DNA from: Amygdalobacter nucleatus
Lineage (GTDB): Bacteria > Bacillota > Clostridia > Saccharofermentanales > Fastidiosipilaceae
Assembly (NCBI RefSeq): GCF_029167365.1
Contig: NZ_JARFNM010000001.1
Span: forward strand, 1,170,001 to 1,234,000
Length of the DNA stretch: 64,000 bases
Direction: 5' to 3'
The translations under genes and the position numbers were made by a program. Below the pieces are notes generated by a model that did not search any database, was not told the DNA's origin, and saw only the letters and a list, made by a program, of their open reading frames with translations. Every line of letters starts with the position of its first letter. Position 1 is the first letter of the stretch. Below are positions 23,426 through 25,810 of this stretch, in pieces.

Positions 23426-24663
23426 TCGACATAAGTAAAAGAAGATGTCACACTATTTTCCTTCATTTTAGGAAACAAATCATTATATTTAACTTGTACC
23501 GCATAATTAGCTGCCGATTGCCCATACGTTGAGCGAATCTCTTGCAAAGTTAAATCTAAACGTCTATTTCGTTCAAATCTTACATAGTCATCAGACCAAT
23601 CAATTTGTTGGGCTTGCCTAGTCGTTAGATTACTAGCTCTAAGCGATAGGGCGCGGATAGGAGCAAATAATAAATCACATTTGTAGACTAACGGTAATAT
23701 ATTATCGACAAAATAGCGTGCAGATGCCGCTGGATAAGCTAGTGGCACTTGAATCTGTTTATGATTAAAGTCTTGATACCGTACATTTAGCTGTAAAACT
23801 CTTGCCAAATAATCATGCTTAGCTAAACGAGCTTGTACTTGTTCAGCTAAGTTCAAAAGTACAGCTTCTAATTCCGTTAAATGCACAATATCACGAACGC
23901 AAGTCATCCCATTACCGATACTTTTAATTGGTATTGCCTGTGCGTAAGAATGGACTTGGCTCATGTCGCGGCCATTGGCAAAATACCATAATTTTAGTCC
24001 ATTAATACCTAATAAGCTCTCAAGGAATTTAGCATCTGCCTTGGCATAATCTCCAATGGTATTTATTTCGTATTTGGCTAGTAATTTACGCGTGTGGCGG
24101 CCAACTCCAAGCAAATTAGCTATATCCAATGGCCAAACTTGCTCTCTGTAATGAAGAGGACTTATGGTAAGTAAACTAGCATTATCTGCTAAATCACTAG
24201 CTAATTTGGCAAATATCTTGTTGTAACTATATCCAACTGAAATAGTTAAACCTAATTCCTGCTTGATTCGCATGATAATCTCCCGCGCAATCTGTTCTGG
24301 GGAGCCAAACAACTTCTCACTATGTGTAATATCTAGCCAGCATTCATCCAGGCCGAAACTTTCAACTTGATCAGTGTAGCTCAAATAGATTTGCTTAGCT
24401 AAGTTAGAGTATTTTAGATATTTGTCATAATGGGCAGCTAATAAATACAAATTGCCATTGCACTTAGCTTCGGCCTGTTGAATGGTTTCACCAGTTTTCA
24501 CGCCCAACGCCTTAGCTTCAGGTGATTTAGCCAAAATGATGCCGTGACGTTCTTTGGGATTGCCGCAGACAGCTACCAGCTTGCCCAGTAAATCAGGCCT
24601 GTCCAATAGCTCTACTGAAGCAAAAAAATTGTTCATATCACAATGCAAAATTCGCCTATACAT
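23422..24663 (-). CDS. dinB: Y-family DNA polymerase (DinB / Pol IV type)
   Basis: An error-prone translesion polymerase. It starts RRILHCDMNNFFASVE, with the first catalytic aspartate and the aromatic steric-gate region of DinB. The second catalytic pair is in SFGLDECWLDITH near residue 105 (DE). The thumb has the helix-hairpin-helix LLGVGRHTRKLL, and a little-finger domain completes 413 residues. AAGGAG lies 7 bases before the ATG. The gene is divergent from an XRE regulator and ImmA/IrrE peptidase, and its promoter overlaps theirs with a palindrome between, which suggests damage- or stress-controlled expression. No beta-clamp tail motif is obvious at the C-terminus. Confidence 0.93.
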   Translation of the reverse strand: MYRRILHCDMNNFFASVELLDRPDLLGKLVAVCGNPKERHGIILAKSPEAKALGVKTGETIQQAEAKCNGNLYLLAAHYDKYLKYSNLAKQIYLSYTDQVESFGLDECWLDITHSEKLFGSPEQIAREIIMRIKQELGLTISVGYSYNKIFAKLASDLADNASLLTISPLHYREQVWPLDIANLLGVGRHTRKLLAKYEINTIGDYAKADAKFLESLLGINGLKLWYFANGRDMSQVHSYAQAIPIKSIGNGMTCVRDIVHLTELEAVLLNLAEQVQARLAKHDYLARVLQLNVRYQDFNHKQIQVPLAYPAASARYFVDNILPLVYKCDLLFAPIRALSLRASNLTTRQAQQIDWSDDYVRFERNRRLDLTLQEIRSTYGQSAANYAVQVKYNDLFPKMKENSVTSSFTYVD

Positions 24664-24704
24664 ACAAACTCCTTGCTGAACTTATTTGCATAATGCTTGC
24701 AAAC

Positions 24705-24720
24705 AAGAACTTTGTTGCAT
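24705..24720. promoter_or_regulatory. Possible second operator copy at the dinB start site
   Basis: AAGAACTTTGTTGCAT resembles the main palindrome context (same AAGAACTT, then GTT and CAT with substitutions) and covers the expected dinB transcription start. A degenerate half-site; inference only. Confidence 0.35.
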
Positions 24721-24722
24721 TT

Positions 24723-24751
24723 AGAATACGCATTTCGTTGTAGTTTGTCAA
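24723..24751 (-). promoter_or_regulatory. Promoter of dinB
   Basis: On the minus strand TTGACA (24751-24746) and TATTCT (24728-24723) with a 17-base spacer. The -35 shares its bases with the -35 of the divergent regulator promoter. Confidence 0.7.
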
Positions 24752-24773
24752 GAACTTAAGTTCATGCTATACT
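24745..24773 (+). promoter_or_regulatory. Promoter of the XRE-ImmA operon
   Basis: TTGTCA (24745-24750) and TATACT (24768-24773) with exactly 17 bases between. The palindrome at 24752-24763 fills most of the spacer. Confidence 0.75.
24752..24763. promoter_or_regulatory. Palindromic operator GAAC-TTAA-GTTC
   Basis: A perfect 12-bp palindrome in the spacer of the XRE promoter and touching the -35 of dinB, so one bound dimer could block both. The GAAC-N4-GTTC core equals the core of the Gram-positive LexA (SOS) box. The most likely local binder is the neighbouring XRE protein, but LexA is a real alternative. Confidence 0.65.
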
Positions 24774-24837
24774 TTGAGCATGCAACATTGTTCCTTTTTA
24801 GAGCTATTGAATGTTGATCATTATACGAGGTGTAAGT

Positions 24838-25230
24838 ATGAATTTTGGCGAAAAACTGAAGAAATTAAGAGCCGAACATAATATGAAGCAGGAAGAACTA
24901 GCTCAAATGCTCGGTGTTAGCGTGCGTAGCCTATCTAATTATGAGAATGGCTTACGCTTTCCTAAACACAAGGAAACTTATGAAAAATTGTCTCATATTT
25001 TTCAAGTAGACTATAATTATTTGCTCGATGAGAACAGCGCTTTCGTCAATCAAGTCTATCAAGAGTACGGTACCCAAGGAAAAGACGAGGCTTTCAGTCT
25101 GCTTAACAATCTCACCGCCTTGTTTGCTGGTGGCAAATTAAGTGAAGATGACCGTGACGAAATAATGCGCTTGCTGCAGCAAGCTTACTGGCAATCTAAG
25201 GATAAGGCCAAACAGAATCACAACTATTGA
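24838..25230 (+). CDS. XRE family transcriptional regulator
   Basis: A 130-residue repressor-type protein. The N-terminal helix-turn-helix spans about residues 4-60, with LKKLRAEHNMKQEELAQML and the recognition helix VSVRSLSNYENG. The remaining 70 residues are helical and probably mediate dimerisation. I take the ATG at 24838, which has GAGGTG 7 bases upstream, rather than the in-frame ATG at 24811. It is followed after 7 bases by an ImmA/IrrE peptidase. In characterised pairs (ImmR-ImmA of ICEBs1, DdrO-PprI of Deinococcus) the peptidase cleaves the XRE repressor. By analogy it would bind the palindrome in its own promoter and control the divergent dinB. Confidence 0.88.
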   Translation: MNFGEKLKKLRAEHNMKQEELAQMLGVSVRSLSNYENGLRFPKHKETYEKLSHIFQVDYNYLLDENSAFVNQVYQEYGTQGKDEAFSLLNNLTALFAGGKLSEDDRDEIMRLLQQAYWQSKDKAKQNHNY

Positions 25231-25237
25231 TACAACT

Positions 25238-25810
25238 ATGGAATCAAGAGAAATCAAGCAAAAAGTTCTTGAACTGAGGCAATTTTACGGTCAAGCAGAA
25301 CCAGCCAAATTAGCTACTAACTTAGGCGTTGAGCTTATATTTTCGTCTAATTTACAGACTGTACTTGGTATGTATAGCCAGGTAAATAATTTTCCCTTCA
25401 TTTTTATTAATCAAAAGCTCGATGATAACGTACAAAAATTAGTCTTAGCCCACGAGTTAGGTCATGCCATTCTCCACACTCAAACTCTGAAGCAAGATGT
25501 TTTCACGACCAATGACTTCTTCAAATTGAACCAAAAATTATTAGTAACTTACGAACATGAAGCAAATCTGTTTGCAGCCTTTCTCTTGATCAATGTCCCA
25601 GAATTAAATGAGCTTTTGCAGCATGGCTTAAGTTTAAACGAAATTGCTAATGCTTTGGCAGTCTGCCCAGAGCTTTTAATGTATTACTGTCGAATTATCC
25701 AGAAGGAGCCTGATTTGTGCCCAGAATTAAACTTAACTATTACCTTAAGCAATAAGTTCCAAGATTTTACGCAAACTGTCGATTTCTGGCAAAATTACTG
25801 CAAGCACTAA
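25238..25810 (+). CDS. ImmA/IrrE family zinc metallopeptidase
   Basis: A 190-residue COG2856-type protein with the gluzincin motif HELGHAILH near residue 75 and a downstream glutamate in YEHEANLFAAFLL near 110 (the third zinc ligand region). Family members cleave an XRE-type repressor to induce a regulon. The gene is just after, and surely co-transcribed with, the XRE gene. No DNA-binding or GAF domain like that of Deinococcus PprI is fused, so the activating signal is unknown. No phage or integrative element genes surround it, which argues against it being only a prophage switch. Confidence 0.9.
   Translation: MESREIKQKVLELRQFYGQAEPAKLATNLGVELIFSSNLQTVLGMYSQVNNFPFIFINQKLDDNVQKLVLAHELGHAILHTQTLKQDVFTTNDFFKLNQKLLVTYEHEANLFAAFLLINVPELNELLQHGLSLNEIANALAVCPELLMYYCRIIQKEPDLCPELNLTITLSNKFQDFTQTVDFWQNYCKH

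Follow-up and report, generated by a model that had tools for sequence, protein, structure and literature searches.

Bacterial DNA-damage responses are commonly treated as being under LexA control by default, and life after its loss is an open question. This question is raised by a locus of Amygdalobacter nucleatus, situated in the 64,000-nucleotide stretch of contig NZ_JARFNM010000001.1 that was analysed here (hereafter, the window), in which genes for an XRE-family repressor and an ImmA/IrrE-type metallopeptidase are divergent from the gene of an error-prone polymerase. An initial annotation of this DNA had proposed that the pair resembles DdrO-PprI and acts as a dedicated switch of the polymerase, as a compact alternative to LexA control. 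Throughout the text, G000 designates the genome holding the window, and the other G numbers designate genomes of the same order.

Results

Gene content of the xre-immA/dinB locus

Both Pfam searches and open reading frame (ORF) coordinates bore out the divergent layout of the pair and the polymerase gene (Table 1). The dinB product, which carries DMNNF and GLDE motifs, matched the Pfam families IMS (1.5e-41) and IMS_C (6e-20) as well as the NCBIfam model PRK03103 for DNA polymerase IV (6e-87, under that model's cut-off). Since the ribosome-binding site GAGGTG directly precedes position 24838, the xre gene most likely starts there rather than at the upstream ATG at 24811.

The pair is flanked by an ABC-3 permease gene and an HtrA-like protease ORF. 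Inspection by eye revealed no integrase or phage genes among the ORFs of the 14-40 kb portion of the window, and no CBASS or other defence operon adjoining the pair, whose neighbouring ORFs are housekeeping-like. Hence, the earlier statement that prophage genes are lacking around the pair holds for the window locus itself; the same block is, however, known from prophage-like contigs and mobile elements (see below).

Table 1. Coordinates of genes, predicted promoters and predicted operator copies at the xre-immA/dinB locus (positions within the window)
Feature	Coordinates	Strand	Remarks
dinB/YqjH-type Y-family DNA polymerase gene (dinB), 413 aa	23422..24663	-	Divergent from xre
Predicted operator copy 1, CTGAACTTATTTGCAT	24676..24691	+	dinB 5' leader; one mismatch to RTGMAN6TKCAY; score 15.3
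Predicted operator copy 2, AAGAACTTTGTTGCAT	24705..24720	+	Directly past dinB -10, over expected dinB +1
Predicted dinB promoter, TTGACA-17-TATTCT	24723..24751	-	-35 overlaps xre -35
Predicted xre-immA promoter, TTGTCA-17-TATACT	24745..24773	+	
Predicted operator copy 3, AAGAACTTAAGTTCAT	24750..24765	+	Contains palindrome 24752-24763; in xre spacer, abuts dinB -35
Predicted operator copy 4, ATGCAACATTGTTCCT (reverse complement AGGAACAATGTTGCAT)	24780..24795	+	Directly past xre -10, over expected xre +1
XRE-family repressor gene (xre), 130 aa	24838..25230	+	Pfam HTH_3 7e-13, also HTH_19
ImmA/IrrE (M78, COG2856) metallopeptidase gene (immA), 190 aa	25238..25810	+	Pfam Peptidase_M78 4e-14

Features of the XRE and ImmA proteins

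An alignment of 47 relatives showed that the XRE protein consists of an N-terminal helix-turn-helix (HTH) and of C-terminal helices with the conserved motif LFAGG.L.E.DRD....Q.AYW. In the structural model, which is reliable in the HTH alone, this HTH portion, and only this portion, matched DdrO (6jq1/6rnz) and ImmR (7t8i); the C-terminal part, where a DdrO-like dimerisation domain would be expected, was of low confidence.

ImmA harbors the motif HELGH at residues 72-76, and H72, E73, H76 and E106 were invariant in 45 relatives. Its model (mean pLDDT 88) was closest to IrrE (3dte, Z 12.8), followed by CapP (12.7) and PprI-ssDNA (12.5), and IrrE/PprI and CapP are proteases which cleave XRE repressors (PMC8072749, PMC10904395). 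A C-terminal GAF-like domain, which PprI requires for activation by ssDNA (PMC10904395), was absent from ImmA: the protein ends at 190 aa, and the alignment with PprI stops at chain residue 209. The switch of the mobile element ICEBs1 depends on RecA, and by analogy a similar RecA dependence may be one option for damage sensing here.

Promoters and operator copies in the intergenic region

The two promoters with overlapping -35 hexamers that had been described for the intergenic region were recovered, although matches of this class are, as such, near chance (6 found versus 4.3 expected). Likewise recovered was the 12-bp palindrome GAACTTAAGTTC, filling the xre spacer and abutting the dinB -35 hexamer. 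It is the sole exact GAAC-N4-GTTC of the window, where one such match is unsurprising alone (0.46 expected; at least one in 35 of 100 shuffles). However, the operator proposed in the initial annotation had to be redrawn: the palindrome is present, but instead of one GAAC-N4-GTTC the region holds a 16-bp element, RTGMA-N6-TKCAY, which occurs four times. The score of these four operator-like sites was matched in 0 of 500 shuffles, and their placement is the geometry predicted for a repressor that would close both promoters.

The same 16-bp pattern was enriched in the matching xre/dinB regions of five relatives (G006, G013, G018, G029 and G064). G000 and these five, all of them LexA-less, hold two to four good operator copies each, with the score being reached in 0-5 of 500 shuffles; for G018 and G029, in which the pattern was first spotted by eye, these counts are non-independent.

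A site shared with the recA promoter

A matrix was built solely from the four xre/dinB sites and scanned against 464 kb of G000, a background in which the recA stretch had been included deliberately. The recA promoter contained a site, ATGAACTTTAGTTCAG, 49 bp upstream of the start, with a score of 16.8 that was exceeded only by a training site. It was the sole non-training intergenic site scoring above 13, all remaining non-training matches above this value being coding. In the whole of G000, exact matches to GAACTTNAGTTC occurred at three places, namely xre/dinB, recA and upstream of an exported ORF. Thus, the genome-wide search for palindrome-like sites that the initial annotation had envisaged led to the recA promoter, and the notion of a switch dedicated to the polymerase had to be abandoned, since recA has the same predicted operator in both the matrix and the GAACTTNAGTTC searches.

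The third occurrence (AAGAACTTCAGTTCTT, G000:C1:1426065-1426076) lies 18 bp upstream of the exported ORF, which encodes 239 aa without a family match and has an ORF for an ABC transporter ATPase behind it; this site may mark a further member of the regulon or merely belong to the end of the YaaA-like gene that precedes it. The 12-bp form was discarded as a regulon marker: exact GAAC-N4-GTTC occurred at 20 places in G000, mostly coding, and the reversed control at 56. Beyond xre/dinB, recA and the 239-aa ORF, a one-mismatch search returned only matches that were coding or had no convincing downstream gene.

A recA site was also found in family f3, where it (GTGAAAGTCCTTGCAC) matches the xre operator of G018 and G029 and is unlike any Cheo box. 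Searching whole genomes for GTGMAN6TKCAC yielded two places in G018 (recA and one coding) and five in G029, where xre/dinB had two, recA and nrdJ had one each and the fifth was coding; both genomes belong to one genus and were therefore counted as one further lineage. The nrdJ site of G029, an XRE-type operator (GTGCAAAGTCTTTCAC, L139:1501-1516), is located about 70 bp upstream of this class II ribonucleotide reductase gene, which is possibly a further gene of the damage regulon. No clear operator was present at recA of G006 and G013, both LexA-less and equipped with the pair; therefore, the capture of recA is not universal.

Absence of LexA and co-occurrence with the XRE family

The G000 assembly comprises 1.61 Mb in three contigs and is 95.5% complete. 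Searches for the LexA family and for Peptidase_S24 gave no match in it, and the same searches were positive in control genomes. When 188 genomes of the order were searched, 13 proved to encode full-length relatives of the XRE protein, and LexA was missing in nine of these 13, including G029, which was counted as LexA-less with only partial S24 matches. Among 106 good genomes, six had the XRE family and no LexA, four had both, two had neither and 94 had LexA only (Fisher p = 3e-6, uncorrected for kinship). By genus, the comparison was 5/9 versus 0/21 (Fisher 9e-4, or 3e-3 when g3 is left out on account of its incomplete genomes; likewise uncorrected for kinship), and all four to five LexA-less genera carried the XRE family.

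In Gram-positive bacteria, GAAC-N4-GTTC is known as the LexA (Cheo) box, and canonical Cheo boxes were found at recA of the LexA-positive relatives G001, G004, G007, G008 and G011. G158 and G134, the two genomes in which both LexA and the XRE family were missing, keep a Cheo box and a near-Cheo site at recA, respectively, which suggests that LexA was missed in the assembly or fell under the threshold. Among named relatives (Proteocatella, Peptoniphilus, Parvimonas and others), no replacement was seen at the recA promoters, and three of these promoters keep Cheo boxes. Four LexA-positive genomes have the XRE family as well, and so do mobile elements; in these settings, it cannot act as master of the SOS response.

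The LexA-less genome G065 provides a natural control, which is fitting although it is only one case: it kept the chromosomal xre and lost the immA and dinB genes beside it, and no full operator was found at its recA. A different contig of this genome carries a second module, xre-immA-polymerase of the UvrX type.

Conservation and wider distribution of the block

Ten other genomes of the order also have the xre-immA-polymerase block, which in eight of them is arranged divergently as in the window, and the block is kept across families f1 and f3; its co-conservation is therewith supported. Together with the absence of LexA, which the XRE family tracks, this conserved block lends strong comparative support to the earlier suggestion that an XRE protein and a metallopeptidase serve as an alternative to LexA.

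More widely, XRE-ImmA pairs are frequently encountered in Clostridia, Negativicutes and Tissierellia, and a Y-family polymerase lies beside it, divergently or within the operon, in about half of 58 sampled cases. In the trees, the f3 clade was firm (100/100) and the grouping of G000 with G006 was weak. A single clade for all LexA-less XRE-ImmA pairs was not retained, its support being 0.88 in FastTree but an UFBoot of 47 in IQ-TREE.

Near-identical XRE-ImmA modules (L161-L170, L174) were observed in Eisenbergiella, Gemmiger, Fournierella, Oscillibacter, Angelakisella, Faecalibacterium and Negativibacillus, and probably represent a recently spread mobile element. The divergent dinB/xre block was also present in the prophage-like viral contigs L275, L276 and L278, the latter two of which also showed immA. 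In G000, another XRE gene (161 aa) occurs in three equal-scoring copies, one per contig (G000:C1:8966, C2:8010 and C3:1825), which suggests a repeated element.

Discussion

The gene identities, the operator copies, the recA site shared with them, the LexA absence and the co-occurrence across genomes are read directly from the DNA. With these at hand, we consider it likely that the XRE-ImmA pair regulates xre-immA, dinB and recA as a damage switch in the LexA-less G000. The XRE protein would repress the three transcription units through 16-bp RTGMA-N6-TKCAY operators over their promoters; upon DNA damage, the ImmA-type metallopeptidase would cleave or otherwise inactivate it, and xre-immA, dinB and recA would be derepressed. 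Because no LexA is detectable in G000, the pair would then govern a minimal SOS-like regulon consisting of the repressor, recA and a Y-family polymerase.

Alternatively, the palindrome and the recA site could be ordinary or relic LexA (Cheo) boxes, with LexA recently lost or missed in the assembly and XRE-ImmA unrelated to them. GAAC-N4-GTTC fits the Cheo pattern, the recA boxes of LexA-positive relatives lie near the same place, and the assembly falls short of full completeness. We nevertheless regard this explanation as quite unlikely, given that neither LexA nor an S24 domain was found in G000 and that the four intergenic sites share one 16-bp register, in which CTGAACTTATTTGCAT, AAGAACTTTGTTGCAT and AGGAACAATGTTGCAT are non-Cheo and agree with the operator seen at related XRE loci. 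Moreover, the inner TT..A common to dinB and recA differs from the Cheo boxes of relatives (GAACAATTGTTC, GAACGATTGTTC), and the f3 recA site, un-Cheo-like as it is, matches the xre operator. Similarly unlikely, in our view, is that XRE-ImmA is a domesticated or resident mobile module acting for itself and dinB only, so that the recA match would be chance and the coincidence with LexA loss a founder effect. Its occurrence on mobile elements and prophage-like contigs, some with dinB, the recA genes of G006 and G013 without a site and the low IQ-TREE support for one clade of LexA-less pairs are in line with such a module. On the other hand, no promoter in the 464 kb, the training region aside, matched better than that of recA, the recA of a second lineage was matched again with a different operator sequence, and no LexA-less genus is devoid of the XRE family.

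Xre-COG2856 pairs have also been proposed to be toxin-antitoxin-like (PMC2701414), and the pair might accordingly be of type II, in which case the metallopeptidase would be the toxin and the XRE protein would serve both as antitoxin and as autorepressor. This we deem very improbable: no toxin gene adjoins the pair, its partner is a polymerase kept across genera, and the nearest solved folds are those of repressor-cleaving proteases.

Returning to the damage switch, we lean slightly towards the broader view that a two-protein proteolytic switch, descended from a prophage or mobile element, displaced LexA as master of the SOS core, and that it did so in several lineages of a single order, recA having been rewired at least twice from the LexA box to the operator of the new switch. 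The XRE-ImmA module itself occurs widely in Firmicutes and also on mobile elements there, and in the literature searched no report of XRE-ImmA as a LexA replacement in this phylum was found. Here, the putative replacement can be named, its operator can be written down and the rewiring of recA can be traced across genera with and without LexA. If true, the DdrO-PprI principle would extend from Deinococcus to Firmicutes, the expression of a mutagenic polymerase would be tied to a protease, and a mobile-element-type switch would be able to turn into the cell's own master regulator.

The predicted regulon is reminiscent of the LexA SOS core (lexA, recA, dinB/umuC) in that it comprises the repressor, recA and a Y-family polymerase; unlike in the LexA system, an XRE protein and a separate protease take the place of a self-cleaving S24 protein. 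The CapH-CapP system of CBASS likewise combines an XRE repressor with an M78 protease, and weak matches to the capP and capH profiles accompany the structural likeness to CapP (Z 12.7), but it governs an anti-phage operon, none of which adjoins the pair. With ImmR-ImmA of ICEBs1, our pair shares the xre-immA order, the short GAF-less protease and an XRE HTH near that of ImmR (7t8i); that system, however, governs the excision of a mobile element, whereas here the neighbours are chromosomal and the predicted targets are recA and dinB. PprI-DdrO reportedly evolved from ImmA-ImmR, according to a 2025 paper in Protein Sci.

The likeness to DdrO-PprI put forward at the outset stands as regards the protease fold, the HExxH/Glu residues, the XRE HTH and the recA operator, but not the GAF-like domain. 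Both systems pair a separate M78 metallopeptidase with an XRE repressor that is autoregulated (predicted here), and in both recA is among the regulated genes (again predicted here) and LexA is not the regulator of recA (PMC8072749, PMC10904395). In Deinococcus, PprI-DdrO controls about twenty genes via the RDRM palindrome and coexists with LexA homologues, whereas here xre-immA forms one operon divergent from dinB, the operator is another one, LexA was not found and the protease does without the domain needed by PprI for ssDNA activation. As this GAF-like domain was tested for and is missing, the pair is classed as a variant that works like DdrO-PprI and not as a member of that system.
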